Shown here: piece by piece, positions 9,541 through 58,754 of the stretch
How positions within the stretch are numbered: position 1 is the first letter of the stretch
Layout of the letters: each line of letters begins with the position of its first letter
Source of the DNA: Rhyzopertha dominica
Lineage: Eukaryota; Arthropoda; Insecta; Coleoptera; Bostrichidae
Reading direction: 5' to 3'
Assembly (NCBI GenBank): GCA_025024175.1
Contig: QCXZ01000003.1
Location: 19,116,392-19,180,391 of the forward strand
Length of the DNA: 64,000 bases
Translations under genes and position numbers: made by a program
Notes under the pieces: model-generated
Seen by the model: the letters and a program-made list of their open reading frames with translations, nothing else
What the model was told of the DNA's origin: nothing
The model's database searches: none

Positions 9541-9704
9541 ACACGTTTTGACGTGGACACGTCTTAGCCCGCACTTCAGGGGTCATTTCGTGAAAATCAC
9601 CATCAGCTAATCTAGTGGTGGCGTTAAGAACTACGACGTAGATTGATACGACCTATAAGTTTAGAAACCTGCATTACGTAAGCACATTTCCCGGTCATTT
9701 TGAG
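9541..9704 (+). repeat. Dispersed repeat R1, copy 1 left part
   Basis: This segment, with the landmark TCGTGAAAATCACCATCAGC, is similar to 44978-45100. It is the left part of an R1 copy interrupted by the P-like transposon. Its last 8 bp, ATTTTGAG (9697-9704), are the target duplication. The repeat resumes at 13274. Confidence 0.65.
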
Positions 9705-10128: not shown

Positions 10129-11891
10129 TTATTTTACATTTTTTACCAAGTCACGCATTGCTACGCTTCTAGAACTTCTGTCTACAGTGTTGACCTTGGG
10201 CAGTCGATTTTTATTCAACTCCTTCAAAGCAAAGAAAAATCTCGTTCGAAAAAAGACTCGAACAAGGGCCTTGAAATGATTATCATGGCACAAGGACAAA
10301 TCCAATAGGATATGGTTTGCCAGAAATGTTTCAGCAGCTTGCTCAAAATTACTCTTATTTTCTAGCAACTCCAATCGGATTTGGCGAAAATATTTTTCTG
10401 CGGTCAAAAAGTATGAAAACACTTTCAGTTGTGGATAAACCAATTTGTTTTCTTTAAATTCCTTGAAACAGGTTAGTAACGATGGGTCAATTCTTTCATT
10501 TGTTGAATAAGTCAGAGCAGAAAGACAGTCTTGGCAGCTTATTCTTAATGAGCATATTAAACTTCCCAGCAAATAATATAACGTTTGCTTTAGTGTATCA
10601 GATTCTTCATCAGTATCATCTATCGTGTCTATTTCTGACAAAACACTTGCATTGTGTTCTTCTACATTATCACTTTTTTTATTTTTACAGTACCTAATTA
10701 AATGGGTGCTTGTATCTGTATCATAATTTCCGTGTATGATCTGACACTCATATTGAGATAGAGTAATCAATCTCAGTGACACTTTAAACTCATGAGGTCC
10801 AGGTACTGGCGTTCGGCTTCGAATAACGGAAAACAAATTCTCAACTGCATCTTGTGTAAGGCGACCGCCCATTACATATTTGTACCCATATTTATTCAAA
10901 TATTCTTCTTGGATATCCAGTGCAGTTTTTGTAGCCAGTATTATTCCAGATTGAACAGGTTTCCACTCAGCCTTACCTCCAATCTTAATATTATAAATAA
11001 TACTCATGAAGTCATTCATAAAATTCACAGCGTTGTCATGTGTGTCCTCATTCATGTGTGACCAGGCAAGTTTAGTGTTCCTGGAGGTTATTATTTTGAA
11101 CCACTTAAACGCTGTTTTACAAAACCAAGCAGTGGTTGCATGGGTTTCATTGATTTTGCCTTTTGCAATGAAATACTCAATACCAGCACCTGTGTCGTGA
11201 TGTAAAAGAGCATATGCTGTACTGACATTCATTTTAGCAAAATGGTTAGGATGAAACATATGCTCCTTGAGGCGTGGGGCAATTTTTAAATCCATTTCTG
11301 AATCCAAATCGAACAATTGTTTTATGGCTTCAATGTCAATATAGTCACTAGGAAGATGATATTTTTGTTGAATTTCAAAATTAATCTGAAATTTTTATGC
11401 CCAATCAATGATATTGCAAGATTTTTGAAGACGTGAACTGGATCAGGCATTATGTATAATCTCTCTTGGTTGTTTAAAGGATGTGGACAAAAGTTGACTA
11501 TTTTCTCATGTCTGTTGGCTGTAATGTGAAGTAGTTTCCAGAAACCTCTATTTAAGGGACCCATGTCGGATATTATTGTTTTTATTGTCACACCTACATC
11601 ATCTGCTCGCTTAACATAATAAAAAAGTTTTCTCAGAACTTCATCCGCGCTATATGAGTTTGCCGTCAGTTCATAGCCAACTGTTTGTTTCCACCTGGTA
11701 CTCATTCCGGCAAGCATAAATACTAAAGCATGTGATGCCAATTCCTTAGAACTGTCCAAGTTCCCAGACAGAAGCATTGTTGGCCTTCCTACTACTGATT
11801 TTGTGGAGTTGTCAAACTGAAGAGATGGTTTTATAGCCATTTCATCTAACAATAATGCAGCATGCCTTTCATGCTCCTCAAATGTCGCCAC
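10129..11891 (-). CDS. P-like transposase exon 5 (catalytic core, frame break near 11385)
   Basis: Starts at GTGGCGACA after a TTTCAG acceptor and runs to the stop at 10129. The first 505 bp or so carry two of the catalytic acids and DPVHVFKNL. The reading frame then changes near 11380-11390 (TTCAGATTAATTTTG). The second part (starting about FDLDSEMDLKIAPRLKEH) carries the insertion domain and the third acid in TQDAVENLFSV. No convincing intron explains the change, so it is called a single indel. The C-terminal about 130 residues are acidic and less recognisable. Confidence 0.85.
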
Positions 11892-13007
11892 CTGAAATAC
11901 AAGAAAAACGTATTTTTATGTACGTAATACAAGTAAATTTTTTTATTTCAGTTTTTATGTACATGTTCGATTAATATCGGATTTCCACACTTGCATTATA
12001 ATTAAAAAAAAAAAAAAATACGAAAATCACAAAACCCATCACCTTAGGTTTAAGTAATTCAAAAACGTCTTCTAGCAAACCTGGCTTAAATTTCAAATTT
12101 TCTATCCGACTTTGGAGTGTCCTGATGGCTGGTAGAGGATACTTTTGCTTGCAAAGCTCTTCATACCCTTTCTTTCCACATGCCATATACAGCTTAAGGG
12201 CATTCTGTATAGTTTCATCTGACCATTCTTTTCCTCGATGATTGCCATATTTTAAAAAATGAATTTGGTCTTCAGAAAAAATAACTTTGACCTTTCCCTC
12301 AATGTTGCTAATTTGTTTTTTTAAAGCTGCAATTTGTGCCTTAGCTGCTCGTAATTCATTCTGCAAACATTTCAAGGGGATATTGTCCTCTTGGTCACTG
12401 TTGCTAGTTGATGAACCTAAAATTTTATTGTAATTTTTTTCTAGATATCTTGCATTAGAATATCATATTCTACTAACCAGACTGTAATGTGGAAGTTGTT
12501 TTCAACTGTTCCTGGGTTGTAAAAATTTCAGAAGTTAAATCCTCACTTGGTGAGTCTGCAACATTTGCCAATTACACAATACTTGGTAGTTGTAGATAGT
12601 TGTTACAACACAAAGGTCATTCTACTTTAAATACCTGATAGTTTGCGTTTCATTCCTTGATTCTGCAAAATGTCTGGTGTCCTAATAGTTGGAATTGCAT
12701 TTCTTTTTAATAACTTTCGGTTATCCAGTCGGTTTAGCTCAAATTGGTCAGCCTCAAAATGTGCCTGAAAATAGCAATAAACACATCTTTACGTCAAATA
12801 ACACTATAACAAAGTTAACACAGACAAATTAATTACAAATGGTATATTTACCTCACACAATAACGCTCGTTCAGGTAAGTCGCTTCGATTGATAAACGCA
12901 AGCCATGCTTTTCTACGTCGGTCATCACATTTTGCTGTAGGTATTCGGAATAACCTATACCCGTTCTCGCCACGGTTTCGGCACCCGGTTAAACAACAGC
13001 TGGGCAT
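10129..13007 (-). CDS. P-element-like transposase (THAP domain + RNase H-like core), five exons, one frame break
   Basis: The gene encodes a cut-and-paste transposase that should bind the element's ends and cut DNA in the nucleus. Exons read on the minus strand are 13007-12852, 12764-12635, 12555-12478, 12416-12043 and 11891-10129. Every junction is GT-AG and the phases fit. The start MPSCCLTGCRNRG opens a C2CH THAP zinc finger that continues into exon 2 (CE|AHFEADQFEL). Exon 4 has a Leu/Lys/Gln-rich possible coiled coil (ELRAAKAQIAALKKQ) and a helix-turn-helix-like region. Exon 5 holds the likely acidic catalytic residues in LLLDEMAIKP, IISDMGPLNRGFW and TQDAVENLFSVIR. The total is about 830 codons, close to the P transposase (about 750) and THAP9 (about 900). 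One frame break near 11380-11390 separates the two long ORFs, so it is either a pseudogene or a sequencing error. Confidence 0.88.
12043..12416 (-). CDS. P-like transposase exon 4 (coiled coil and HTH-like region)
   Basis: 374 bp from a TTTTAG acceptor to CTAAG|GTGATG. It joins exon 3 in phase 1 and ends in phase 0. It encodes a probable coiled coil followed by a region with EWSDETIQNALKLYMACG and YPLPAIRTLQSRI, the pattern of the P/THAP9 N-terminal helix-turn-helix region. Confidence 0.83.
12478..12555 (-). CDS. P-like transposase exon 3 (linker)
   Basis: A 78-bp exon between TTGCAG and CTG|GTTAGT, phase 1 to phase 1. It encodes a Ser/Thr/Glu-rich linker (DSPSEDLTSEIFTTQ). Recognised by its splice sites and matching phases. 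Confidence 0.65.
12635..12764 (-). CDS. P-like transposase exon 2 (THAP C-terminal half)
   Basis: Begins after a TTTTCAG acceptor with AHFEADQFEL, supplying the HF end of the C2CH motif, then a linker rich in Arg and Lys. Donor CAG|GTATTT. Ends in phase 1. Confidence 0.82.
12852..13007 (-). CDS. P-like transposase exon 1 (THAP zinc finger, N-terminal half)
   Basis: The ATG at 13007 is chosen because THAP proteins start just before the first Cys pair (MPSCC..GC). An in-frame ATG eight codons upstream (13031) is less likely. The exon includes the conserved FRIP and KAWLAFINR segments of THAP domains and ends TGTGAG|GTAAAT. Confidence 0.85.
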
Positions 13008-13273: not shown

Positions 13274-13500
13274 ATTTTGAGAATTGGTGTGCGTCATCTA
13301 GCGGTGGCTTTACAACCTACGATGTGTTACGGTCGGTAAGTATAAGAAAAACCCAACGAAAAAGAGCAACCGGTGTAATAAAATTGCTTTGAATGATTAA
13401 TCTTTGTCATATTAATTTTAGCTCTACGTTAACTTCCTCCTCTATCATGTATTTAAGATAGACGTGTTCACGTCAAACTGACCGGTGTGTCAAAAACTAA
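13274..13500 (+). repeat. Dispersed repeat R1, copy 1 right part
   Basis: Continuation of R1 beyond the P-like insertion. Landmarks are GTCATCTAGCGG, ATTAATCTTTGTCAT and TTTAAGATAGACGTGTTCAC, shared with 38040-38140 and 45120-45320. Confidence 0.7.
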
Positions 13501-19000: not shown

Positions 19001-22000
19001 ATTTAATATGCACATTGAGTAATTCATTGACAGATTTAACTGCATGCTTGTTTTCGTTAAAAGGAATATTTCTTCCTATNGAGNCACACGCAAGGGCGAT
19101 GGTTGTTTTACATGNTGTATATCTAGTTAGGTCCATTTTCGAATATGGAACAGTTATCTGGTCCCTTAGATATTTATACCTAGTGAAATGCATCGAAAGA
19201 ATTCAGTCTAGATTCATAAAGTATTTGTGCTATAAGAACTCAGTTAGCTATGAGGCTAGTGAATACCAATCACTTCTATCTTATTTTGGNTTACCTTTAT
19301 TAAATTTTAGGCGTGAATGCTCCGATGTTTTCTTCTGAAACAAAGTCATTAATGCTTTCGTCAACTGTCCCCCTATATTAGAATTAAAATGTTTTCAGTT
19401 TTTACNTGTGTTTATTAGAAATCATTCTGTTATAAAAATAGATTTTCATAGGACCAACTAAGGGCCTTTAACTAGAATTGTAACCGTTGCAAATAGATAT
19501 GCTAGTGATATTAATATATTCAATTGTAACCTGAAATATTTTGTAAATGTCTCAAATATCTGTAAAATCTTTGTATGTCTTTTTCGCAATACTTGTATAC
19601 ATGAAAATGGCCTTTCCTTCCATAAATAAAGTTACTGTTATTATTATTATCTCCATGGAATGGTTGTGATGAGATGCTACACCTTAGGTTATTTTTCTTT
19701 ATAGTTAAGACTTCTAGAATGATCTCGCGAAGACGATTCTGGCAAAAACCACTCTTTTCTAATAAACTCTAGTGCATTCAATCCGATTTATAATGTCAAT
19801 GTAACGCCTTTATGATACAGGAAAGTTCTTTATTTCACGAACACTTACAACTTAAACATAATGCAGTCTATAACATCTGCAGCTCCTTTCTACTATCGCC
19901 TTCTTTTTTTTCAGCTGCCAGTTAACGATAAATAAACTAAATGATCCCTCGTTCTCGCAAATTCGCCTTTTATAACCCATTTCATCGGGTATTCTAGAAT
20001 CTTCTAGAGATCTATCCATTCCGAAAACAGCTTTGTCGCCTTTGCAACATTTTCAGGTTGAGCTTGTTTCCCTACAGGATAGGAAATTACTTTGTCTACG
20101 TCTACTTCGAAAAAACTAAAAAGGAATACAGAGAATCGCACTGTGGCCTTTTCTATAGAAGTGTACTTTATATTCTGGATAATTCAAATTCCGTATGACA
20201 CACTTTATAGGTTCATATTGCACTTGAATTTTAGGAGTAAAATAAAAATTATTACACATTTTCATATTTTTAAGTTATAAACAATGTTTATAATAGCGCA
20301 ATTAACTTTTATTAAATGACATTAAAATAAGACTGATCTATACCTCATATTGAAGCTTAATAATAGATAAGTTCTAACTAAGACATACTGTTGCAGGCCA
20401 TCGACGCTGATGTCTTTCTTACAAACCCGGATACTTTAAATCTTTTGATCCACAAAAACTATACAGTTGTGGCACCAATGCTGACATCGGAAGGACTATA
20501 TTCAAATTTTTGGCATGGCTGGACTGAGGATTNTTACTATTTGAGAACCGATGGNTATAAACCAATTTTATTTCGCAAAGAAANTGGATGTTTTGACGTG
20601 CCAATGGTTCACTCTTGCGTCTTAATTAATCTACGTCACGCTGAATCCGATTTACTAACGTACGTGCCAGAAAAAATTGAAAATTTTGATGGACCACGTG
20701 ACGATATAATAACATTTGCTATATCTGCGTATAAGAATCATATCCCGATGTATGTTTGTAATGAAATTACCTATGGATTCGTGACGGTACCGTTACAACA
20801 AACTGATGACTTAAATGTGGACCGTACTGTATTAACAAACTTGAAACTTGAAGCACTCAATGAAATTGGTCAGACGTTGACAGCGAAAGAATTATTCAAT
20901 ACTTACTTGACTGTACCTAAGAAGGATACACTTGGTTTTGACAAAATTTTCATGATAAACTTGCTGAGAAGGCCTGAGAGGAGAAGAAAAATGCTTACTG
21001 CTTTTGACGAATTGGGACTTGACGTTGATATACTTGATGCCGTCGATGGGAGGTGAGTTACTTACAGATTCCTTTTTTTCACAACAGTTGCAGATTTGAT
21101 AATTGGGTATTATCACTTTTTTTTGAAAATAACGTATAATGAATTTTGAAGTGCATTTATATTGCACGCCGTGTTAAAAAAAACGAAAAAAAATATTTGT
21201 AGGTAGAGAATTTCAGGTCTAAAATTCTAACCTTAGGATTCACTGTCAAAACGCTTCTATCCAAGATTGTTCAACTCGTGATGTCAAAAGTGATTTGTGT
21301 AGTTTTACAAGCATCTATTATGTATGGAAAAGAAAACAATTGTTGTTTTGTACCTTGCTGTTAGAGTACATCAGTCAGTACCGCTAACAAAATTTTTGTA
21401 ACCGTTCCTCGAGATTATCAACGTAAGAAAAGTGGTTTAAGGCCGGCCACTAGGCTTCATATGCCGAAATCGCAAAGTTTGTTTTTCTGTTGTGAAGATC
21501 ATGTTAATGCAAGTTTTATTATTCTTTTTGAGGTTATAGGTGTTTACCGTTCAGTTTTCATTTTGTTACGGCTGGAAGAGGATATGGAAAATTATATGCG
21601 TTTTAAGTTGATAGGAGGAAATATTATAATAAAGAAAGAAGTTGTTCCTCATATATTCGACTGTCAGCCAAACCGGAAACGAGCCGCAAGTGCCCCCGAA
21701 AATAAATGGCAATTTATATTTATTCTGACCTCTAAAATAAATGTCAAGTTTAAGGTAAATTATTGATTCTCACTATTTATGTTTACAAATAGAAGTTTTT
21801 TATTTAATTATGTCGAATGTGACAGAAATAATCATTCTTTCCATGGTACTACGACCTAATAGTAATATGCTTGTGTGATATACACTANGTTTAATTCAGA
21901 GTAATACCACTCCTAAACTTTATTAGATATTTTTCAACAGCTTTGTGTAAGCTGTATATTATTGCTGTTTAGTTAACCAATTATAAAAGATTAAGAACAT

Positions 22001-25000
22001 AAATCACCTTCTTCAAAAACTGACTTTTTTGCACTTGCGGAATTGTTCTTCTGGGAGTGCGTTATGTTGTTAGTATTTATAATTTTAAACATTTGCTGAT
22101 CAAATATAAGCAAGCAGAAAGTATTACTTCAAACTTATCCTAACCACGATAAAAATATTTTAGTTTTGTAAGGCATATTCTTTTTATGAAAAAATATTTT
22201 GTATTAGTTTTTTTACCTTACTCTTTTGAGATAATATGGCTGAATATACATTATTTTGCTGGTTATTGTGAATCACTAAAGTTCTGTTTTGAATACTAGT
22301 AATTCAAATCTAGCAATTCGTGTTAGCTGCAAAATGCTTATGTTTGTTTAGTAACAGTAATTTATTCACTGCCTGCTGCATACCTTTACCAAATATATCA
22401 AGTCGTCTATGTTAATTTTTGATACAGCTCTTTGATGAACAGTAAATTCAGATCAGATTCAGTTCAACTTGTGAAAAATGTTTTAATTTCTTACAACAAA
22501 AGAAGCATATAGTTTTAGTAAAGCAAAGTATAACCAGATTATAGTGGTCTTGGTCGCCAGTAGTAGCTGAATTTTTTAAAACAATACTGGTAACTAACTG
22601 GATGGCTTGGTTTGATTTGTTAATTGTGTTTCTCAATATTTTCTTCAACACTGCAATTTTTTGTTCAATATTACGGATAGCTCTACTAAGGATAATGATC
22701 TTTACGACCTTTCGTGCTACAAAAGCAGTTCTCTTTAAATATAGGTTTTAAATCTGATCGGTAGGTAGCGGCAGCTTATATGGTGCATGATTTTTGCTTT
22801 ATGTCTTATGGAAAAGTTACCATATCTTTTTAATTTAAAACTATTTAGATGCTATTATTGCATTGAAAATGTTGCAATGTTATTTATGTGCTTAAAAAAT
22901 GCATACAAGGGAAAATCGGCATTGCTTTCCATAAGGTTCACAGTTAAATACATAGGTATATCTATCATGCTATAGGAAGATGTGACACAGGAGAATTTAA
23001 CATAAGTTTTTAATATGCTCCGAGTAAGTTACAACACAGAATAGGTCAGCTGTTCTATTTTTACATTAAGTACTGTTTAATAAGTATCATTTATCTTTCG
23101 AGTCTTTTTGAACTTATTTTAGTTGAGTTTTACTGAATTCGTTCTTTAACATTTGACTAGACGAAATTTAGGGCCGCTCAGATTAGACAAACTAATAAAT
23201 CTGTGATAGTTTATAAGGTTCTTAATTATTATATTATTATAAGTATTGTTATTATACTGTAATTTTATACTTATGACGTTAAAATGAATTTTTGGTACCT
23301 ATTTGAAATTTTATTACTTGAAATGAAAATAAAGGTAATTCGAAATCNTTATAGTGGAGTTACAAGTATTCAACATATTTGTTATTGTCATAAAGTAAAT
23401 AACGTAGAACATATTTTTTAGAATACGTAACAATTTTTAAATAAATTTAATTTTATTTTAAATAACATCTAGGTAAGTGTCTTTNAGTTAGTCTTACATA
23501 CTTCTCATAAAATGAAATCAGATGTTAGAATTTTAACATTTTTGTGTATTCGTACGCTTTATTCGCTCTATGCAGTCAACATTTAAACATGTTGTTGCAC
23601 GCTCTCCAAATTTTGTATTCTTTGTCATACATATCAAATTATGTAGGTAATTGCCTTATAAGTGAAAATGGGAACAATATCCGAGGAGTGGCATGATTCA
23701 TGCTAATATCATTAATATTTGAAACAACAAGGTAAGGAAGGGATAATAAATAACAATATAAATTAAATTTTACATGTATTGCGCTAAATATATATATTAC
23801 AGGCAATGCACAATGTATTAGACAAAATTGTGTGCAGCTGATATATTCATATTAATGATACTATCCATAATATATTTGGTATAATTTTCTGACACAGCCG
23901 ATTTACCACAGCCTGTTCTACTTGTGCCGTACCAATATGGCTTCGCACATACCTAGTAAAGAATCTATTCCTATTATGTTTTCTGAAAGTGCAAGTTAGT
24001 TTCAGAACTAAATGTTGTTGCCGAATTAAATATTATATATAAACAAAAAATTGCTAATAACTATTCAACATTTATTTGTTTGGAGGTCTCTCCTATAATG
24101 TTCTCCATTTGCAAAACTATTTAAGCTTAGTGTAACTATGCAATTTCCAATACATCCAACCTCCAACACAATACAAGTCTTAACGAAGTATATGCGAATG
24201 TATTTACACCTGTGCCGTTTCTTGATTATTCTTCAGAATATAATCATTTTTTCTTATAGCCCTCTGGATAGCATAGTCTTTTCTTTCATCTCCTTAGATC
24301 GATTTCCATACATTTTTGAGCTACAGCCCAACAGTCATTTCTTATTAATACATACACCATATTATAAGGTCGTGTTTCACATGATGCCTTTAATATCCGT
24401 TATTTGTCTAATACGACAATTCCTGATCCTGTAATCCCGTGTTCCATCTCCAGTAATGTCAAAGGGCAGTATTTTGTTCTTTCCCATTTTTCTTACTTCC
24501 CACATTTTTGAGCCCTAGGTTCAGATGCTTTCCACGATAGTACTTTATATAATTCCTTTTAATTTTGATTATTATGAATTGTAAAGTACTATAATAGAAA
24601 AGACTGTTTATCTACCCCAACCACCGTATATTACGGATATCTTTATTCCACTATCTGTATGTAAGAGAGCAGATACCCTTAGTGCTATTTGTCTGTCTGT
24701 CAATTTATTCTGTACCCCTAACTAGTCGTGGACTCAGAGTGGCTTGACCAGGGCAATGATTTATTTTGCATTACCTAGTTAGATTTATCGTTGCTGACAG
24801 TTATTCTGTCTTTTTTAATTTAATGTTAGACCCCACTTTCCACACTTCCATTAATTTTCAAAACACATATGGAATCTATTATTTGCGGCATTTAGTACGT
24901 CATCACATGCAAATAGTGTTACATATTGTATTTTAGTATTTGGGGCAAGTAAACACCTTGTCTTGAGCCGTTATTTACATATTTCAATAAAGTTTACGCA

Positions 25001-37100: not shown

Positions 37101-40100
37101 GCTGGCAATGGCAGTTTTATCGTTTCTGCTAACTGTTTTAGACCCATACACAAACACAGCATCTACAATCTAGCGGGGTTGTTCCCAAAACGGAACACAG
37201 TATCTGTATATTATTATTTTTGCATTTTTGCACTTACTGTGTTTTTGTTTGGAGCAGCCGAACGTAGTCTGATGGTATTTACTATACTAGGATCACCTAA
37301 CAGATGAAGATATCACGTGTAGTCCACACATCTATCACGTGATCAGAACCCCTTCCATTCCGAAAAGTGTAACTTAAACCGCACAGCAAATTTTAACATT
37401 TATCTTTTCTGAGGCAACATTACCTCACTTTTTATGGACTTAGCGAACGTTCAGGTTTAGAATTTGCAACAGAAAAGTTTACTCACAGATGCCGTATGGC
37501 TATATCTTACAATTAAATTGCCCAAGAACATAGTTTAGCAATTTTAGTTTAATTTCGGTCGATCGGTAAGGTTGGCTAGTGTGAAACGGGGTTGAAGCAG
37601 ATCTCCCTCGGTTGCGGAGAACCAATAGGAAAGCTGCGTTTGAAAATCACGTGAAGATCAAGCGTGTTTATTACTCCGTCTGTTAGGTGATCCAATTACA
37701 GTCAATATTTACTTTTTATTTAACTGTGTAAGTTACTCACTATTATATTGGAGCTGTTATTTTCCATGGCCTCATTCTGGAAATAATTCAGTTTATCAGT
37801 TCATCCATTAATTGTAATTTGTAAAAATTACAGAATATTGTTTCATTATCTACTCAAAATGTTTTTGACGCGGAAATGGCTTACGGTACTCTTTGGGGGT
37901 CATTTTATGAAAATCGGTAATGAGTAATCTACCGATGGCTTTACGAACTACTGCGTTCGCTGGCAGAGTAGANTACAGAGATACTGCATCGCCGATTGGC
38001 CAGTGAGCGTTTGAGCTCATTGAAAAAGCCCAGCGAAATAAAATTATTTTGAAAGATTAATCTTTGTCATGTCAATTTTAGGTCAGAGTTAACAACCTCA
38101 TCTACCACGTATTTAAGATAGACGGGTCCACGTCAAACTGTATCAAAGGTACAGCCGCCGGTATACCGGGTTTCCAGTAGTATTTAGTAGATATCGTTTA
38201 AGTTACTCACCGTCGTATTGGAGTTGTTAACTTGGGTAGTCCTGAAGGTCTCATTCTGGAAATAATTCAAATTAATCAGTTAATGGATATAAATTTGTAA
38301 AAATTACAGAATTCTTTACGCCGCATGTATGTAAGTGCCTACAGAGAGTCAATATATCCCTACCTGAGGAGCCCAAACAAGGGCGAAACTAGTCGTGGGC
38401 TCCAAGTACATTGACCAGAGCAGATTCACGGAGACGCTTCTCCAATGCCATCGATAGCAACCGGCACTAAGTCGTAAGTGGTTGCCACTGTTGCAACACA
38501 GCTAGTGTGAGTGTTCCGCCTAGATGGCTCCGAGGGCCATGGCTTTCACTTACATCTATGCCCCACGCTGCGGTTAAGGCGGCAGTCTACTTTGGTCAAT
38601 ATACTCGGTATCTCTAACTNACGAGCCAAAACAAGGGCGAAACTAAATCATTATTAATTTTAGGTTTACTATTAGTTCGTAATCACTTACTTCGACGCTA
38701 CATTGCAATTGGAATTGTTTTATGCATTGGTAAATAGTAAATACCTGCAGTGCACAAATAGTCATATCATTGTTTTTGTGTAGACGTGTTATTCTTCCTA
38801 TTACCTACTATATAAGTTCAGTAGAACTTTTAAATCTTTTATCAGGCAATCTCCGTTGGCGTATCAAAAGTATTTGTACCTGCGCTAGGTGACCGTTTCG
38901 TAGACTCATTTTGTGTTTACGTTCATGATTTACTAAACCTCCATATCTTGCATTGTCTATGTCTAGTAGGAATTGAAAGCGCCTTTGTGGTTATTAGTTT
39001 TGAAACAGATGTTTGTGATTACAGGCTAAAGTAAACAGCACTCATTTTCGTTAAAATCTATGATATTATTTGTTAGTGGCACCATTTAAACCTCATTTAA
39101 TCAGGGAACGATAATGAGTTTTGTTTGGAAGTTGGGTTAAATTCGAGGCGGTTGTCCTAATTATTTTCATTTAATTCATGAGTTAATTATCCTATGTACA
39201 GTTTCAGAGTTCCATGATTCGTAGTATGCAGTCGGGCACGGGAGACTACTTTTATTTTAACTCCTGATTTCATAAACGGCTGTTGATTAGCTTACCTTAC
39301 TATTCAGTAGTGAGCGGTGCTCGACTTTAGATAGTTCCCCACTACATATATTTTCTCACGAGTTTGCTAACAGCATATATATTTATATATGTCTACTTTG
39401 TTAGTTCAATTTAATACCTCGAATACACGTTTTTCGTATATCCTAAAATTGTTATCGTATCAAATGATACATCGCGTATTTTTAATATTGTTTCAGGGAG
39501 ATAAATTCGACCATTTTGAATCAGCTAGAATTTTTGCCGGAATTTTTAGATCCTTATAAAAAAAGGTATGTAGTTGTCACATTTGTAAGAATAATTATAT
39601 TAAATATAAGCTTATTTATAGGCCCATGACCTTGGGGGAAATAGGCTGCTTCCTCAGTCACTACCGGATATGGCAGGAAATGGTCAAGATGGGATATAAC
39701 AGGGTGTTGATACTTGAAGATGACTTAAAGTTTCAGCCATTCTTTAGAGCGAAAGCGTTACAAGTTATGAAAGAAGCCGACAAGTATGGCCCTTGGGATT
39801 TAGTGTAAGTAATCTTACAGCTTAACTCTATTTACGCGACAGCTACGGTTTGAGGACATCTTAGCATGGAGTACTTCCTCCATAAATGTGACGTATTAAA
39901 TTGCGCAGAACCTCTCATTCAATAATTTAAAATTGTTTTCAGAAATGTTATACCGGAAATGCACCCTCACTTTGTTATTTTAAATAGAACACAAGCTTTT
40001 TCATTGATATATGTATTTCTGGTTTAATTTTATCCCNCTTCCCGTATCCATAAGGCNCGTGGTACCGTTACTNGAGCTCTATAAACGTAGGTTTTAGCCA

Positions 40101-43100: not shown

Positions 43101-46100
43101 CAAACAACAGTCAACGCAGTGACGCCAAAACACGTACCGCGAAACGCTCACCAAACTGCGATCCAAAATCGTAAGCGCGGGAAACTGTCGACGGGAGGAA
43201 GACTCGTCCTCACACCGCCGGCACAACCAAGAATGGGGTATAAGACACTTTTCTGGAAAAATATGTTTTGTGAAGCTAAAGGTATGCTAATGCTAATTCC
43301 AAAATATTTCTTTTGTCTGTGGAGTTTTAATGCCCTAAAAAAAATATTGTAAATTGGCGGGAGACAACGCCCCTTCTTAAACGCGGCCAGTACATACGTC
43401 ATCATGACGTATGTACTGGTCGAACGTTTGACAACAGAGAAAGGCAATCAGCTGACGGACATGCCCGTAACCAATGACAAATGACAGCATGACAGTGAAA
43501 GACGAAAGTGCACGTGTTTGTGTTTGGTTATGTATAGTACTCGCAGATTTTGCTATTTGTTATTTGATGTTGTGATCAATACGCGATAAGCTGCTCGAAT
43601 CAGTCTTTATGCTTCCTGATGATATTTTGCCTACAAACTGAGAAATGGTATTAATACACCCAGTTTTCGACAACTCTAAAGTACCCATTAGTTTAGGTTA
43701 TGTTTACATAAACATATGATCATGTAAATAAACTTGGCAAGGACATACAATGATGCCAAGTGTGCAACAGACTGAATACGATTGGCTGGAAAGAAGCGCG
43801 AATTCGGCAAGTCATTGAAACCAGGACGAACGGACCCTTCAGATTTGTAATTGTTATAAACTATTCGTATGTAATTTTTTTAAATAACTGATGGTTGTAT
43901 TAGGATAGTAGAGCAAACTAGAAACATTGTAAGTGATTGTCTTGTTCAGTTTCAATAGTTGTCTTATACCCCATTCAGGATCATCGTTAGAAACTTTTTA
44001 ACCAGCCACCTTACAGTCCCAACCTTGCACCTAATGGCTACACATCAAACACTGACTTGCTGGGCAATGCTTTAAGAACGATTAGGCCCTCAAGACTGCA
44101 GTTATGTACTGGTTCAATTCCCAGGCGCGGAATTTTAATGCAGATGAGGTGTAAGAAGGTGGTGCAGCGTTATGAAAAGTGCTAAGAAGTACTTATGTGA
44201 AAAAAATGAAATACGTTAGTAGGAAACCAAAACTGTGAATAAAGGATTTTTCCAACGAATCCTTTTTTAATGACAAATAGCGCTTACTTTACAAATATGC
44301 CTCGTACTTATAAGGTAAGACTTGTAAATACAAGGCTTCTTACTATTTTTTAATAATAAGAGATGTACATTGCACACTACTTTCAGCATATCCAAATCCT
44401 TATTAGAATTGTCACTATGGGTCAAATATGGTGAATGTGAATACTCACCTTTATAGAGCCTTACTATTACCATTACATTTGATATTGTTTCAAAGAGATA
44501 TCGTTTACAGTACTGGCGAAAATTTATATCAGCGATCCGAAATTAAAGAAAAATATAAAGGGTGCCCTTCTTACCGTTTTGTAGGGCAAGAACACTATCG
44601 TTTTTATTAAGAAAAGTCATTACGCATTGTGGTGCATTCTAAATTTCTTTTAGAATAGATTGTTGTAACTTTCGATCACTGCAGTATAGCGTGCCTAGGC
44701 GAGTTAGATACTCGCAGAGTAAAAATATTTTAGCTTGTCCAAAATATTGCAAACCGCACTAGACGCCTTGATTCGTTTTCACTCATTTAGCATATAGTAT
44801 AATAGATAGTTTAATTAAGGATAAAGAAGAAGCTAATTTAAAAGTCAAAACGTACAATAGTTGTCTTAGGTATTTGCAACGTTTTTGTGATTACTATGAA
44901 AGACACTTTAAGCCTGAGGAACCAAAGGAAGGGATCTTCGCCTAGCAACCAGTGTCACTAAAGTTTTAAATTGGACACGTCCTACACCGCACTTTAGGGA
45001 CCACTTTGTGAAAATCACCGTCAGCTCATTTAGCTGTGGCCTTCTTAACTACGACTTGGTTGCTACGCACAGTAAGTGCAGGCCTAAGTACAGAGACCTT
45101 ACTGCCGTCGTTTTGTGAAAATCGGTATGCGTCGTCTAGCGGTTGCTTTACGAACTACGACCTATTACGGCCGGTAAGCACAAGAAAAAGCCCAGCAAAA
45201 AAAGAATCCAGTGAAGTGAAATTGCTTAGGATGATTAACCTTTGTCATATCCAGTTTACCTCATAATTAACTACCTCCTCTATCACGTATTTAATATGCA
45301 CGTGTTCACATCAAACTTACATGTGTATCAAGGATAGAGCCCCCCATGACTTTTTGAATTTTTTTTTCAGTAAATAAAATTAATACACAGTAATGTAATC
45401 TAACTTAGTGCTTGGCCCTACTGTAGGCATCTTTAATTATACTATCAGTGGAAAAAAAACTTCCAATTTATACAAAATATCGATAAAATAACCAAGACCT
45501 ATAATGTCGATATTTACTCCTTATTAGATAGGACGAAGTCTTGGGTCTTCACTTTCATATATCTGTACGGATTCAAATTTTGTGGAGACTATCTGTATTC
45601 GTTATTTAGTGTTGAGGGACGAACTGAAAAAGAAAACAGCAGCAAAACTCATCACCAAGGGAATCCAACTAAATCAGCAACGCAGATGTAACCTATTTGT
45701 CATCTGCTTATTCACTAGATTATTTGCCCTATTTGAATAATAAATGATTTTTCACTATCCTAGAGGTCAAATCAAAGGCGTATTTACGTACAGATACACT
45801 GATCACGTGCCCTGGGCAGCAAATTCCACGAGGCGGGAAATTTTCATCTGACATATACAGGGTATGTGATTCATGTATCCAGGGCGCTTATGGAAATTAT
45901 CGATTAAATCAATTTGCGCCTCTCAGGAAAGTGACATATACTTGTCATCTGTCGATTTTTGAATTATTTGATATATTTTATTATGATTAAACGCTCAGGA
46001 GTGCGTATTTTCAACATATTCTGTAGTGATTTGTGGGATAATTAACTTTAAGGTTGCAGAAAGCTCACATTTCAGAGCTGTTGTGTAACATTGATCTGTA

Positions 46101-51701: not shown

Positions 51702-52807
51702 TGTAACAGTGCATTAATCAGTAGATCAAGTGTTGCCAATCCCATCCAGTAGTTCTAATGTAAGGATAGGCTCCCACTCCGAGGCTCCCGTGGTCCCATT
51801 GGGCTTTCGAGCGGGCAGGACATTTTTGGTTCGCTGGGTAAGCTGTCCGCGTCGAAAACGTGCAGCTCCCTTTGTTNTTCGTTTGNTTTTTGCTATTGTG
51901 TGGAAAAACCCTGTTATTACAGGTAGGCATTTTTATGATTAAATAATTAACGCATGAACTAAGTGTTGTCATTTGCCGCAGGGTTTTTTTTTTCTTTCTT
52001 CTTTTGTGTGTCCTCGTTTGGTTGTTTCTCCGGAACAAAGCGGCCACATCGGCAACACGTTTGTCGCTGAGCTTTTTGGGGTTCTTAAAGGCGCTTCGTT
52101 TGTACAAACACAAGCTGATTGCAAGGTCAACTTATTCGAGGGAAAGGCTCCTTCAAAGAGTGGACGACTGCTGTACCCGACGACGCTACCGCAAGCTTAG
52201 GCGAAGGGGGACAGAGGCGCCGCAGGTGACGGTTGGCAGCTTGTACGGCGCTGAAAACGTGTGCGGCGAACAACAGTACTGTGAGTTTTTTTTTGTTTTA
52301 ATAAGAAAAAACGCGGCAATTTGACTGAACAGAAGTGACTGATATTAAGAACCCGGATTAGACAAGGCAGAATAGTTAGGCCTACTCTGTTTACTAGATG
52401 GTCATAATTATACTTGATTATTTGATTTTTATCCATTCATATGTGAAGATAATGGTACCATTTTCTATCCAGTTATCATGTTTTCTTTGAATATATACGC
52501 TATTCGTTCTTATTTACTTAAATATGTACTACCTGTATGAATTACTTTTCATTACAATATATATGTAAATAGATTTTCCGAGTTAGATCTATTCATTCAC
52601 TGTCCATCGCTACAAATTAACTCGGTGGCGCCCTAAAAATAAAAAATACCTATATTAAAAAAAAAAGAAAACAAAACAAAAAAAAATTAATAATAATCGA
52701 TAGTCTCGCCCCGTTTCGACGACCCCCACCCCCTGTCGACTGGCTGCCGTGGCGTTGAATAAAGGTAATATTTTTGTATAAGTTTTCCTTCGATGTTGAA
52801 CCTTACA
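51702..52807 (+). repeat. 5' LTR
   Basis: 1106 bp, TG...CA ends. An AATAAA lies near its 3' end (about 52757, GAATAAAGG). Two N bases. Short ORFs inside are repeated in the 3' LTR and are not genes. Confidence 0.96.
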
Positions 52808-52885: not shown

Positions 52886-54127
52886 TTGTTTTCAAAAATG
52901 GATCCTAGTACGTTGTTAGTGCATGAATTAGATTATGAATTGAAGTTGCGCAAGGCTTATAGTAATAAGGCTAATGTTTGTTTGAAAAGGAAGGCTTTGA
53001 AGAGATTGCTGGAAAAAGAGATTGTTAGGGACCCTGTTTTCGATTTATCAAGCATTGATTTAGAGGTTGAAGTCTCCGAACTAAAGAATAGTTGTGATGA
53101 AGTCAAGGAATTGATTGAAAGGTTTGACCGTTCCTCAGTAGATGCTAGTGTTCAAGAAAAAAAGATTTTGTCTAGATTTGCTCACATACAAGGTAGATTA
53201 AATAGGTTGCCTATTGATGACAGAGTAGAAATGTTGTCGTACAGAGAATTTAGGGATGAATATCGAGTGTTGTTGTTGTCTATGGAAGATGATTTAGAGG
53301 AAGGCTGTCAAAAAGAGGAAGCGGTTGATCGAGCTGAAAGTAGTATTGGTTCTGGTTCAATACAGTCTCAAATTCAATCAGTAGTTGTGAAGGGTAAAGG
53401 TATTCCAGTTTTCAAGTGGGATTTGAAGTTTGATGGTGCCAGGGAATCGGTTAGTTCTTTCTTAGAAAGAGTAGAGGAACTTCGCGTTGCTAGAAACTGC
53501 AGTAAAGAGGAAGTTTTTGCTTCAGCGATTGATCTTTTCAGTGGTACAGCTTTAATTTGGTTTAGGTCGATTCGTGGTAAGGTGAACGATTGGGATTCGT
53601 TAGTGAAGCTGATTCGAAGAGACTTCTTGCCTTCTGATTATGATGACGTATTGTGGGAACAAATCAAGGACAGAATTCAAGGAAAAAACGAACAAGTAAC
53701 AATATTTATTGCTGTTTTAGAAAACCTGTTTAGTAGATTAACGGTACCTTGTTCTGAACAATTAAAAATAAAATATATAAGGAGAAATTTGCTCCCTTGC
53801 TACTCATCTGCCTTAGCACTTGTGGATGCACCGACTGTTGAGGCATTGAGTGAACTGTGTCGCAAAATAGAAGATGCAAACATTTCGGTTAAACACCCAA
53901 CGACTTCGAAAATAGCAACATTAGAACAGGCTTTAACTTATAATACGACAAAACCAACCAGCGACGGTAGTAGGTTAAAATGTTGGAACTGCGATGAAGA
54001 TGGTCACGTTAGGAGAGACTGTAGGAAACCAAAAAGACCAATACACTGCTTCGGATGCAATGAGCCTGGAGTTATAAAACCGAATTGCCCAAAGTGCACT
54101 CCAACCGTTTCATCACCAAAAAACTAA
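52886..54127 (+). CDS. gag: Gag polyprotein of the Gypsy element
   Basis: 413 codons from the ATG in TTCAAAAATGG, 79 bp after the LTR. It forms the virus-like particle in the cytoplasm. The N-terminal half is charged and helical. The middle holds a retrotransposon Gag capsid-like region (FKWDLKFDGARESVSSFLER, ALIWFRS). Near the C-terminus there is a CCHC zinc knuckle CWNCDEDGHVRRDC. A second knuckle, CFGCNEPGVIKPNC, has Val where His is expected and may not bind zinc normally. The last codons overlap pol in the -1 frame. No stops or frameshifts within. Confidence 0.93.
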   Translation: MFSKMDPSTLLVHELDYELKLRKAYSNKANVCLKRKALKRLLEKEIVRDPVFDLSSIDLEVEVSELKNSCDEVKELIERFDRSSVDASVQEKKILSRFAHIQGRLNRLPIDDRVEMLSYREFRDEYRVLLLSMEDDLEEGCQKEEAVDRAESSIGSGSIQSQIQSVVVKGKGIPVFKWDLKFDGARESVSSFLERVEELRVARNCSKEEVFASAIDLFSGTALIWFRSIRGKVNDWDSLVKLIRRDFLPSDYDDVLWEQIKDRIQGKNEQVTIFIAVLENLFSRLTVPCSEQLKIKYIRRNLLPCYSSALALVDAPTVEALSELCRKIEDANISVKHPTTSKIATLEQALTYNTTKPTSDGSRLKCWNCDEDGHVRRDCRKPKRPIHCFGCNEPGVIKPNCPKCTPTVSSPKN

Positions 54128-57100
54128 AGGCTGGGATGCGTTCCTTTGGCCGTCGTAGTCCTAGCAATTTAGAGGCCAAACAAAATTATTTTGATCGCGA
54201 GGATTGGCAAAGATGGCTTGAATATGTTAAAAATTTCTATAAGAATTCGAGAACTGAAGTTGCTCCTGCTTTTGCAAACACTATTGACAATCGACCTCAT
54301 ATCCATGTTAAAATTTTTGATGAAGTTTTTATAGCTCTTCTAGATTCTGGGGCCAACAGAAGTGTAATGGGTAGACAAGCTTCATACTTATTAGATAAAT
54401 TTAACTTGCAAACCACAGACAGTCATGTGACCATACTGACGACGGCGGATGGAACAGCGCAGGATGTTTTAGGCACTGTTGAGGTACCACTTCTTGTCGG
54501 AAACACTGTAAAGTTGATTGACTTCTTAGTAGTGCCGTCTTTAGCACACGGAATAATACTGGGTAGTGATTTTTGTGAATATTTCGATATTTCAGTAGAT
54601 TTTAAAACGCGAACATGGAGGAGTGGATATTCGAATGTGGAAGCACTTAAAGTCGGCATTACTTTACGAAACTCTACTTCATCAGAATGCAACGCAGTCA
54701 ACGTCATACGCAGTCATTCAGAATTATCATTAGAACAAAAGAAAACTATAGATGTTTTGATAGAACACTTTAAAATTCTTTCTCCAAGACAACTAGGTCG
54801 AACAAATCGAATTGAACACAAAATTGATACTGGCGATTGCGAACCAATTAAGCAAAGACACCACGTAATGTCTCCATACATGCTTGGACACCTGAACAAG
54901 GAACTTGATAAAATGCTTGAACTCGGAGTAGTTAGACCATCGACTAGTCCTTGGGCAAGTCCCGTTTTGCTTGTAAAAAAGTCTAATGGAGACATGAGAT
55001 TCTGTTTTGATGGCAGGCGGCTGAACTCTGTTACCAAGAAATGCGCTTACCCATTGCCATTGGTTGACCACATATTAAATAAATTGTCTGGGGCGCAGTT
55101 CTTGAGTAGCATCGACCTAAAATCGGCGTTTTGGCAGATACCCTTGGAGACATCGTCTTGCGAGAAGACAGCGTTTATAGTTCCTGGGAGAGGTCTTTTT
55201 GAATTCGTAGTAATGCCCTTTGGCTTATGTAACGCTGCCCAAACACAGCAGAAGTTGATGGACAATGTTTTGGGACCGGATCTAGACCCGTATATTTTTG
55301 TATACTTGGATGACGTAATCATCGCAACCCCAACTTTTGACAAACATGTTGAATGTTTGAAGATTGTATTCGACAGACTGAGAAAAGCCAATTTGACAAT
55401 AAATATTGATAAATGTAAATTTTGTTTGCCATCGCTGAAATATTTGGGATTTGTAGTGGACAAAAGAGGATTGCGAACAGACCCGGAAAAGGTCGAGGCG
55501 ATGCTGAAATACCCGAAACCTAAGACATACACCGAAGTTAAACGTTTTCTAGGACTCTGTTCTTGGTATCGAAGATTCGTAAAAGACTTCTCAACAGTAG
55601 TAGCCCCATTAAACAGTTTGTTAAAAGGAAAAAAGAAGAGTCAAAACATTGTATGGACGGAAGAGGCAAGTGCCGCTTTTCAAGCAATAAAAGAAGCTCT
55701 GGTGTCAGCACCAATATTGGCTAGTCCGGATTTTGAGAAACCGTTTGCCATACAGGCTGATGCATCGAATGTTGGTGTAGGCGCGGTGTTGACACAAATT
55801 GTTGATGAAAAGGAATGTGTTGTTGCTTACGCTTCACGGACATTGACAGAGAGTGAACAGAAATTTACGGTAACAGAGAAAGAGTTGCTAGCCGTCGTGT
55901 TTGCCTTAGAAAAATTCAGATGTTACGTAGAAGGACAGCATTTTACGGTAGTAACAGACCATGCGTCGTTGCGTTGGCTGCATAATTTGAAAGATCCGGT
56001 AGGAAGATTGGCTAGATGGGCCATAAAATTGCAACAATTTGACATGGAAGTAGTTCATCGAAAGGGATCGCTAAACGTTGTTCCGGATGCCCTTAGTCGA
56101 GCTCCCGTAGAAATATGCTTATTAGAATTTGCAGACCTAAATTTTGATAATGATAAATGGTATAGAAAAATGTTGAATAGCGTTATGGATGAGCCACAGA
56201 AATATGCAGATTGGATGGTGGAAGGAGGTAAACTGTATAAGCATTTGCCTGATGACCTGACTTTGCGTACGAACAATCCTGTTTGGAAGCTAGTAGTACC
56301 AAAATCGCTTAGGACTGAAGCTCTAAAAGAATGTCATGACGACCCATTAGCATCGCACGGTGGAGTGTTTAAAACAACAAGCCGTTTAAAAGAATTGTAT
56401 TATTGGCCACAACTGACACGAGATGTGAAAAGATACGTTAGGAATTGTAAAGTATGTTCAGCACAAAAAGCTCCGAATTGTAGTAGACCTGGTCTGATGG
56501 GACAACCCAAACGTGCAAATTTCCCTTGGCAATACATATCGGTAGACATTCTAGGACCATTACCACGTTCAAAAAATGGATTCTGTTACTTGCTTGTGGT
56601 CTCGGACTATTTTAGTAAATATTGTCTATTACACCCTATGAAGAAGGCTACTACATCAGTCACTACTAAGTTTATAGAAAACCAGGTATTTCTTGTTTTT
56701 GGCGCACCACAAATTGTTATGACGGATAACGGATCACAGTTCGTATCTAGAAGTTTTAAGTTGTTATGTGAGGAGTATGGAGCTCAAATATGGTACAATG
56801 CTAAGTATCACGCTCAAGTGAACGCTGTGGAGCGAGTGAATAGGGTTATAGGTGCTGCCATTCGTTCATATATCAAGGAGAACCATAGAGATTGGGATAT
56901 TAATATACACAAAATAGCTTTTGCCATGCGTACAGCAGTACACCAATCCACTGGGTACAGCCCAGCCTTTATAAACTTTGGTCGATATGTACCTTGTAAG
57001 GGAACCTTTTATGGAAAAAAATTGTCTGGAGAAGAGGTTTTAGACGTCACCAATCGTGAATATTTTGTTAAGGATCTAGAGGAGTTACCTGAATTATACA

Positions 57101-57402
57101 AGGATGTTCGTCGGCATTTAGTCAAGGCATACAAACAAAATGTGAAGACTTACAATTTGAGAAAGCGACCAGCAGAACAGTACCACGTTGGAGATTTGGT
57201 ATGGAAGAAGAATTATGTACTTTCAAGCGCTGCAGACCGTTTTGCATCGAAATTAGCACCCAAATACATTTTATGCACCGTAAAGCGTGTAGTGTCTCCA
57301 TTAACTTATCACCTACATAACGAAGACGGGTCAGACATTGGCATTTGGCATGTAAAGGATCTTAAGCGTTATCATGAATCCGATCTACCCACCCAGGATT
57401 AG
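54085..57402 (+). CDS. pol: Pol polyprotein: protease, reverse transcriptase, RNase H, integrase
   Basis: 1105 open codons in the -1 frame relative to gag; translation should enter at 54118-54124. Domains in order: aspartic protease (LLDSGANRSVMG, near 54343); reverse transcriptase (MPFGLCNAA, catalytic YLDD at 55303-55314); RNase H (IQADASNVGVGAVL, EKELLAVVFALEKF, TDHASLRWL); integrase with an HHCC zinc finger (CKVCSAQK) and D-D-E acids in SVDILGPLP (56545), MTDNGSQFV (56725) and NAVERVNRV (56830). The C-terminal YILCTVKRVVSPLTYHL resembles the GPY/F end; no chromodomain seen. No inactivating change. Confidence 0.96.
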   Translation: MPKVHSNRFITKKLKAGMRSFGRRSPSNLEAKQNYFDREDWQRWLEYVKNFYKNSRTEVAPAFANTIDNRPHIHVKIFDEVFIALLDSGANRSVMGRQASYLLDKFNLQTTDSHVTILTTADGTAQDVLGTVEVPLLVGNTVKLIDFLVVPSLAHGIILGSDFCEYFDISVDFKTRTWRSGYSNVEALKVGITLRNSTSSECNAVNVIRSHSELSLEQKKTIDVLIEHFKILSPRQLGRTNRIEHKIDTGDCEPIKQRHHVMSPYMLGHLNKELDKMLELGVVRPSTSPWASPVLLVKKSNGDMRFCFDGRRLNSVTKKCAYPLPLVDHILNKLSGAQFLSSIDLKSAFWQIPLETSSCEKTAFIVPGRGLFEFVVMPFGLCNAAQTQQKLMDNVLGPDLDPYIFVYLDDVIIATPTFDKHVECLKIVFDRLRKANLTINIDKCKFCLPSLKYLGFVVDKRGLRTDPEKVEAMLKYPKPKTYTEVKRFLGLCSWYRRFVKDFSTVVAPLNSLLKGKKKSQNIVWTEEASAAFQAIKEALVSAPILASPDFEKPFAIQADASNVGVGAVLTQIVDEKECVVAYASRTLTESEQKFTVTEKELLAVVFALEKFRCYVEGQHFTVVTDHASLRWLHNLKDPVGRLARWAIKLQQFDMEVVHRKGSLNVVPDALSRAPVEICLLEFADLNFDNDKWYRKMLNSVMDEPQKYADWMVEGGKLYKHLPDDLTLRTNNPVWKLVVPKSLRTEALKECHDDPLASHGGVFKTTSRLKELYYWPQLTRDVKRYVRNCKVCSAQKAPNCSRPGLMGQPKRANFPWQYISVDILGPLPRSKNGFCYLLVVSDYFSKYCLLHPMKKATTSVTTKFIENQVFLVFGAPQIVMTDNGSQFVSRSFKLLCEEYGAQIWYNAKYHAQVNAVERVNRVIGAAIRSYIKENHRDWDINIHKIAFAMRTAVHQSTGYSPAFINFGRYVPCKGTFYGKKLSGEEVLDVTNREYFVKDLEELPELYKDVRRHLVKAYKQNVKTYNLRKRPAEQYHVGDLVWKKNYVLSSAADRFASKLAPKYILCTVKRVVSPLTYHLHNEDGSDIGIWHVKDLKRYHESDLPTQD
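54118..54124 (+). promoter_or_regulatory. Gag-Pol -1 ribosomal frameshift site A AAA AAC
   Basis: In the Gag frame the codons are CCA AAA AAC TAA. The heptamer fits X XXY YYZ and sits directly before the gag stop. Slipping -1 enters the pol frame (AAA AAA CTA AAG). No downstream pseudoknot was worked out. Confidence 0.8.
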
Positions 57403-57648: not shown

Positions 57649-58754
57649 TGTAACAGTGCATTAATCAGTAGATCAAGTGTTGCCAATCCCATCCAGAAGT
57701 TCTAATGTAAGGGTAGTCTCCCACTCCGAGGCTCCCGTGGTCCCATTGGGCTTTCGAGCGGGCAGGACATTTTTGGTTCGCTGGGTAAGCTGTTCGCGTC
57801 GAAAACGTGCAGCTCCCTTTGTTTTTCGTTTGATTTTTGCTATTGTGTGGAAAAACCCTGTTATTACAGGTAGGCATTTTTATGATTAAATAATTAACGC
57901 ATGAACTAAGTGTTGTCATTTGCCGCAGGGTTTTTTTTTTCTTTCTTCTTTTGTGTGTCCTCGTTTGGTTGTTTCTCCGGAACAAAGCGGCCACATCGGC
58001 AACACGTTTGTCGCTGAGCTTTTTGGGGTTCTTAAAGGCGCTTCGTTTGTACAAACACAAGCTGATTGCAAGGTCAACTTATTCGAGGGAAAGGCTCCTT
58101 CAAAGAGTGGACGACTGCTGTACCCGACGACGCTACCGCAAGCTTAGGCGAAGGGGGACAGAGGCGCCGCAGGTGACGGTTGGCAGCTTGTACGGCGCTG
58201 AAAACGTGTGCGGCGAACAACAGTACTGTGAGTTTTTTTTTGTTTTAATAAGAAAAAACGCGGCAATTTGACTGAACAGAAGTGACTGATATTAAGAACC
58301 CGGATTAGACAAGGCAGAATAGTTAGGCCTACTCTGTTTACTAGATGGTCATAATTATACTTGATTATTTGATTTTTATCCATTCATATGTGAAGATAAT
58401 GGTACCATTTNCTATCCAGTTATCATGTTTTCTTTGAATATATACGCTATTCGTTCTTATTTACTTAAATATGTACTACCTGTATGAATTACTTTTCATT
58501 ACAATATATATGTAAATAGATTTTCCGAGTTAGATCTATTCATTCACTGTCCATCGCTACAAATTAACTCGGTGGCGCCCTAAAAATAAAAAATACCTAT
58601 ATTAAAAAAAAAAGAAAACAAAACAAAAAAAAATTAATAATAATCGATAGTCTCGCCCCGTTTCGACGACCCCCACCCCCTGTCGACTGGCTGCCGTGGC
58701 GTTGAATAAAGGTAATATTTTTGTATAAGTTTTCCTTCGATGTTGAACCTTACA
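57649..58754 (+). repeat. 3' LTR
   Basis: 1106 bp, equal in length to the 5' LTR. The four substitutions relative to it are all in the first about 150 bp. Confidence 0.96.

Follow-up and report, generated by a model that had tools for sequence, protein, structure and literature searches.

A non-LTR hammerhead retrozyme family in a beetle genome, probably inserted by Penelope-like machinery

Non-LTR retrozymes of metazoans, as described in the accessible text of Cervera and de la Pena 2020 (PMC7229834), are non-coding units of 170-400 nt that each carry a type I hammerhead; they occur as copies of one to several units with target duplications of more than 4 bp, in genomes that also contain Penelope-like elements (PLEs). 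According to the accessible portion of a review (PMC7761336), the retrozyme repeats show no motif that reveals the mobilising retrotransposon, PLEs are named as likely candidates, and the enzyme that mobilises animal retrozymes remains an open question. For one PLE protein, cleavage and extension of both strands of the target are described, with reverse transcription beginning inside the RNA (PMC11167929). Penelope inserts of the rotifer Adineta, in the part of the report open to us (PMC3846280), contain an inverted pLTR and an optional tail and are flanked by duplications of 8-10 bp, with some inserts having no duplication.

Here we describe a retrozyme family of the beetle Rhyzopertha dominica that resembles the metazoan non-LTR retrozymes in the hammerhead of each unit, the unit length, the one- to multi-unit copies, the target duplications and the co-occurring PLEs. 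It differs from them in having two preferred 3' ends, one of each per insert in head-to-head arrangement, which are undescribed in the accessible text of PMC7229834 and PMC7761336, and in a unit GC content of 47-53%, compared with the values below 50% given there for metazoan non-LTR retrozymes. With PLEs, as far as the available part of the Adineta report extends (PMC3846280), the family shares head-to-head inverted arms and short duplications, but it has no ORF. No account of head-to-head retrozyme inserts or of beetle retrozymes was found in the accessible parts of the literature covered, which mostly excluded subscription journals. We consider it probable that the element is a non-LTR retrozyme, a non-coding RNA of about 276 nt with a type I hammerhead motif, that relied on Penelope-like machinery, acting in trans, for its copying and insertion. 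The motif, the dispersed family, the two preferred 3' ends, their use as one of each where both are assignable, the duplications and the parallel with resident PLEs are read directly from the sequence.

The window, i.e., the whole stretch of 64,000 nt that was analysed (G000:C3:19116392-19180391), was compared with 39 further loci that were read in the same genome, and the boundaries of the retrozyme insert were placed by this comparison at about 38329..38662 on the plus strand. The insert consists, in this order, of an inverted 9-nt stub of a site-B end, about 1.2 units on the plus strand, and a site-A end (the two sites are defined below). The stub (38329..38337, minus strand; ATGTAAGTG, the reverse complement of CACTTACAT) is by itself near the noise limit, its score being 10 where the 99% point of 500 random pieces is 9.0, and its place is as expected. 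The site-A 3' end (38646..38662, plus strand; AATCATTATTAATTTTA), identified from the family ends, scores 12, the 99% point of 500 random 30-mers being 10.5. Positions 38547..38555 (plus strand) hold an internal site B (CACTTACAT), which belongs to the pair of preferred end positions of the family. The unit between the two equivalent cleavage positions (38395..38648, plus strand) is 254 nt long; its counterpart in another locus, L012, has 276 nt, and the family comparison places a loss of about 23 nt, which removed internal site A, at 38425..38426 (plus strand). The original spacing of 254 nt is therefore correct for the window but does not represent the period of the family. There is no convincing target duplication at this locus (flank match score of 4).

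The first hammerhead (38348..38415, plus strand) retains every core element, with cleavage predicted after C38394. It comprises, as read from the sequence on the plus strand, the core CTGAGGA (38364-38370), helix II GCCC/GGGC (38371-38374/38381-38384), GAAA (38385-38388), a helix III of 2 bp, AC-TA-GT, which forms the palindrome ACTAGT (38388..38393), the cleavage triplet GTC (38392-38394), and helix I with inner strands CCTAC/GTGGG (38359-38363/38395-38399) and outer strands GTCAAT/ATTGAC (38348-38353/38410-38415). The absence of about 7 nt (CTCGGTA in copy 2 and in relatives) makes the outer part of helix I short. All the elements named in the original prediction (CUGANGA, a 4-bp helix II, GAAA, a 2-pair helix III, GUC, and five inner and six outer pairs of helix I) were located; the description as minimal is not borne out, the helix I of the family hammerheads being long and interrupted by an internal loop. 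The tandem layout was likewise recovered, the two copies being 86% identical over 37 nt at a spacing of 254 nt.

Of the second hammerhead, only the 5' part is present (38594..38645, plus strand), with one core base N, and the triplet and the 3' strand of helix I are deleted; copy 1 has the CUGANGA/GAAA core, three helices and H17 triplet of a type I hammerhead, whereas copy 2, owing to these two defects, does not. Its GAAACTA, which extends to 38645, runs directly into AATCATTATTAATTTTA, which is similar to the 3' end of the family, GATGATTATTAATTTACAT. Because GAAACTA abuts this family-like end, we attribute the loss of the triplet and the helix I strand to an internal deletion of about 31 nt, rather than to a truncation right before the triplet as initially proposed, the end of the element following the deletion. 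The window copy is a fossil, i.e., an old and decayed copy of a retrozyme. The window holds one more insert of this family, in a more advanced state of decay, at 24659..24771 (plus strand), with an inverted B arm (24659-24685) and an A arm (24720-24771) that keeps GTC and the A end; the rest of the ribozyme core is absent.

In a permissive scan, the Rfam model Hammerhead_1 (RF00163) matched positions 38358-38400 end to end at a score of 31.5 bits, with an E-value of 1.2e-5 in a search space of 1 kb and of 7.6e-4 in one of 64 kb. A scan of the whole window at gathering thresholds gave zero Rfam matches because this score is below the gathering score of 34. Across the genome, Hammerhead_1 had at least 25 matches (74 of 57767 candidates scored), 22 of which reached the gathering score. 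The hammerhead core pattern occurs once, against 0.02 occurrences expected. When copy 1 was folded alone, the hammerhead was not the chosen fold. A core-pattern scan of IMG/VR, where records close to the genome of the window are possibly excluded, produced no match. At the level of sequence, the hammerhead motif of the window is confirmed as real.

Searching the same 479-Mb genome with positions 38340-38660 yielded at least 80 matches (best 40 of 565 candidates scored), and a second query at least 83 (best 40 of 321 candidates scored). The copies are mostly 70-88% identical to the reference unit, and the family unit is about 276 nt (L012). The non-coding unit bounded by hammerheads, at 254 nt in the window and 276 nt in L012, falls within the 170-400 nt of retrozymes, and dispersed multicopy inserts with target duplications longer than 4 bp characterise the family, such a duplication not being seen at the window locus. 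No LTR, primer-binding site or polypurine tract, features that such retrozymes lack, was noticed in passing. With 254-276 nt, the unit is too short to encode a polymerase. The postulated mobile RNA unit, which carries a ribozyme and lacks a polymerase gene, is upheld by the short unit, the dispersed copies, the target duplications and the defined scar.

Among 86 matches to the hammerhead region, 38 of the longer ones, window included, were aligned. The complete hammerhead core is kept in 18/38 and ACTAGT in 27/38. The expected sister copies exist, but conservation of paired positions, the other part of that expectation, is not apparent: within the family, 84.2% of pairs are kept compared with 84.7% in shuffles, which gives no support for covariation. 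In the 39 sister loci, 15 hammerhead matches were obtained (E up to 0.5), 14 to Hammerhead_HH9 (RF02275) and one to Hammerhead_1, all below gathering scores. Hammerhead_HH9 resembles the hammerheads of this family in its long helix I with an internal loop, the difference being that helix III here is the palindrome ACTAGT. Very short palindromic helices III are also found, as far as the accessible sources go, in newt and axolotl hammerhead repeats (PMC7229834) and in dimer-cleaving Penelope hammerheads (Lunse 2017, via PMC7761336); the sequence here differs from both, and dimer activity is putative by analogy. Given such a short palindromic helix, dimeric cleavage is plausible, and ACTAGT at 38388..38393 could form an intermolecular helix III of 6 bp; copy 2 has lost the palindrome.

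When 20 of the 25 Hammerhead_1 loci were compared with the family unit, 13/20 matched it, mostly around the hammerhead, and 7 did not at that threshold. Helix III is palindromic in 11/21 hammerheads compared, window included; subfamilies of hammerheads at loci L074-L093 differ in this helix, several of them being palindromic (ACTAGT, ACCCGGGT, ACTCGAGT). Across the subfamilies, helix I position 6 is TA, CG, AT, GT or GC in 19/21, and helix III position 3 is TA, CG or TG in 11/12; these compatible pairs are not independent evidence because the covariance model itself chose 20/21 of the hammerheads, a few of which are parsed one base off. Circular folds were scored against mononucleotide shuffles and kept out of the evidence (z of -5.8 for L009, -4.3 for the window unit, -1.8 for L010, -1.1 for a partial L026 unit of 169 nt, and +0.6 for L012).

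The insertion scar was analysed in end tables made with a three-unit query, with unit positions (u) counted from the first nucleotide after the L012 cleavage site. The 3' ends pile up at site A, u38-60 (...TTATTAATTTACAT), which lies about 47 nt downstream of the position of cleavage, and at site B, u180-195 (...CTCTCACTTACAT), about 140 nt from site A; TTACAT is common to both. For the counts, the segmental duplicates L011 and L044 were dropped and the window was left out, resulting in 37 loci with 58 outer 3' ends, of which 26 fall at A, 17 at B and 15 elsewhere. Compared with a uniform spread, this clustering has a binomial P of about 1e-24, the windows that define the two sites having been set after the pile-ups were seen. 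The 21 two-ended loci include 11 A/B, 4 A/other, 3 B/other and 3 other/other, with 0 A/A and 0 B/B, that is, one A and one B end at 11/11 old-family loci where both ends are assignable. Many copies consist of head-to-head arms with scattered inner junctions.

Target duplications were sought in 11 loci and the window, a set that does not include L031, also A/B. The best ungapped flank match is 10 or longer in 6/12 inserts against 0/132 mismatched pairs (Mann-Whitney P of 6e-5 for the comparison). The arrangement known from Penelope (head-to-head arms, two preferred 3' ends with one of each, and a short duplication) is present at the family level; the window locus has a weak B stub and no visible duplication. 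The outer 5' ends of one-armed copies are located at u86-98, away from the cleavage site, in 9/16 cases, one of which, L045, is open to doubt, its second arm having been dropped by the script. The one-armed copies that start near u90 suggest uncleaved linear RNA as their template, and the shared 5' end at u86-98 may mark the start of transcription or a fixed end of the RNA.

With the relative L087 as the query, a search gave at least 159 matches (best 40 of 1024 candidates scored) and exposed a second family, which we judge to be younger because the query is at the same distance (82-85%) from dozens of its copies. Its scar was tallied at 39 loci from the coordinates of the 150 matches listed. 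Among these, 55/66 outer 3' ends lie near query position 71 or 210, the two being separated by 140 nt, and 11/66 at neither; position 210 is the site that follows the hammerhead, i.e., site A. The matches listed include 27 two-ended loci, 19 fully assignable and 8 with an unassigned end; 18 of the 19 have one end of each kind and one has the same site twice (C64:21939748-21940678). Two of the loci (C47:29336-30535 and C47:55553-56752) look like mirror duplicates and, counted once, give 17/18 with one of each. All three second-family loci read at both ends have target duplications of 13 bp (CAATTTGGTACAC, AATTACCAAATAT and ATTACTAGCTACG); the latter two were scored 13 by the script, and CAATTTGGTACAC, outside the offset range of the script, was read by eye. 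One arm of this family contains about 7 tandem units (C137:37468869-37470853), as would be expected from a circular or tandem template.

Potential partners are abundant in the genome: a GIY-YIG search produced at least 144 matches (best 150 of 2080 candidates scored), 55 of the 144 listed sharing a score of 33.5 bits. RVT_1 and GIY-YIG share a single frame both in L061 (492 aa) and in L065 (about 819-820 aa); an intact Penelope frame of L060, read whole, had no Pfam match at 0.001, and the 492-aa frame of another copy matched. The linked Penelope RT/GIY-YIG that had been suggested was not found beside the insert, but elements of this kind, bearing the same scar, are abundant in other parts of the genome. 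GIY-YIG was absent from the nine frames scanned among the 16 longest of the window, and the window unit, being too short for an ORF with RT and GIY-YIG, is not a PLE. The window element seems to move like a PLE without being one.

From 14 Penelope loci taken, nine of one family were compared, with L060, L062 and L063, which are more complex or one-armed, left uncounted. The remaining six (L061, L064, L067, L068, L072 and L073) are all head-to-head, with one tailed and one untailed arm (6/6), and the tailed arm is longer by about 37-39 nt. Their flanks match over 10-16 nt in 6/6 inserts against a control maximum of 8 in 30, these matches including microhomology with the element ends. The minus arm is left of the plus arm at 15 Penelope loci among 41 matches listed. 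With a tail-containing query (best 40 of 964 candidates), both arms were seen for six loci, five of which are tailed/untailed: C41:30504326/30505515, C1:33725648/33726552, C42:2740742/2742117, C41:44319624/44319957 and C41:38978500/38978814. At the sixth, C137:17356906/17359670, both listed copies are tailed, and a third copy, among the other 41 matches listed, lies further out (17362413); for other Penelope loci, the untailed state was deduced from absence among the best 40. The retrozyme family has ends with and without a tail in common with these elements and, in the accessible part of PMC3846280, with those of Adineta. The two ends are separated by about 37-39 nt in the resident Penelope and by 31 bp in Adineta, as given in that part of the report, compared with about 140 nt between sites A and B of the retrozyme.

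Against the proposed mobilisation, the young Penelope family (94-100% identical in the 40 best matches listed) is, judging by divergence, much younger than the retrozyme family of the window, its ends are unlike the retrozyme ends, and an Rfam scan of three Penelope loci detected no hammerhead. The two-site, one-of-each scar that the retrozymes have in common with resident PLEs is genomic evidence for this partner. In Anolis PAc (PMC11167929), reverse transcription starts internally and the hammerhead lies upstream of this start, an arrangement to which we liken that of the retrozyme. At L065:7118-7775, a related retrozyme forms a head-to-head insert about 2.5 kb from the Penelope-like ORF, and is taken as separate from it.

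These observations can be accommodated in a scheme for which we infer self-cleavage, a circular template and a Penelope-like protein as the agent. RNA with hammerheads would be made, partly trimmed and perhaps circularised. The Penelope-like protein of autonomous elements, with its RT and GIY-YIG endonuclease, would cut the target with a stagger of about 13 bp, and each of the two target DNA ends would prime reverse transcription once, one at site A and the other at site B, after which the two cDNAs would be joined 5' to 5'. Circles or tandem RNA would serve as the template for multi-unit arms, and uncleaved linear RNA for the copies that start near u90. The broader proposal, that animal retrozymes are trans-parasites of PLEs and that integration is paired, each DNA end being extended from a different RNA start site, has in our estimate about equal chances of being right or wrong. 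If it is correct, two rarely interchangeable start sites would reside on one folded, often circular RNA, one per DNA end, so that nearly every complete insert would have one end of each kind, and the RT could roll several times round an RNA circle. The scar pinpoints positions A and B of the RNA and constrains the way in which Penelope proteins would integrate.

Other explanations account for parts of this pattern. That the motif is a chance hammerhead-like sequence is hardly credible: the score under the Rfam cut-off, the absence of matches at default settings and the failure of the window copy alone to adopt the hammerhead fold would fit, but the E-value of 1.2e-5, the mere 0.02 core patterns expected, the complete core in 18 of the 38 aligned family hammerheads and the existence of sister copies bearing the same core argue otherwise. 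A SINE-like retrozyme moved by a LINE via target-primed reverse transcription is the least improbable of the alternatives, although still improbable. Twin priming generates inversions in L1 and would here account for the inverted copies, and the non-coding, dispersed inserts have target duplications in the LINE-like range. However, a poly(A) or simple-repeat tail is not apparent at the old-family ends examined, both ends are fixed to about the same degree, with one of each used where both are assignable, and resident PLEs display the same pattern.

Still less probable is a MITE-like foldback or inverted-repeat DNA element that a transposase moved with the hammerhead as cargo, which would explain the inverted arms, fixed outer ends and target duplications, and for which the window holds a fragment of a TNP-like transposase. 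The inner junctions and arm lengths differ among loci, from a stub to about 7 units, one-armed copies exist, and the two ends correspond to separate positions within a single unit, all of which count against such an element. Comparably remote is a decayed tandem satellite with hammerheads that spread by recombination and not through RNA. Tandem units do occur, and hammerhead satellites are found in cave crickets, according to the accessible part of PMC2837043, but the loci read consist of short, scattered inserts that have preferred ends and, in half of those tested, target duplications, and the long arrays with shared flanks expected of a satellite were not seen at these loci.

Apart from the retrozymes, the window contains several other repeats and genes. 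The exon at 20382-21053 has its best named matches among beetle glycosyltransferase 25 proteins (64% identity in Zophobas), with a 98% match to an unnamed one. A tandem satellite with a period of 143 and a 434-bp higher-order unit, 99% alike, occupies positions 286-3692. At 11325-11915 (minus strand), a TNP-like transposase RNase H domain (PF21787) is encoded in one of three neighbouring frames (10129-12462). An LTR-type retrotransposon with gag, protease, RT, RNase H and integrase domains spans 52886-57399 and is flanked by near-identical ORFs (51718-52131 and 57665-58078) that look like LTR parts. Partial copies of another dispersed repeat are found at 37863-38159, 9546-9639, 13275-13480 and 45107-45344. 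Finally, positions 37726-37836 and 38196-38312 form an imperfect direct repeat, about 470 bp apart and 75% identical over 121 columns, the second copy of which ends 16 bp upstream of the retrozyme insert.
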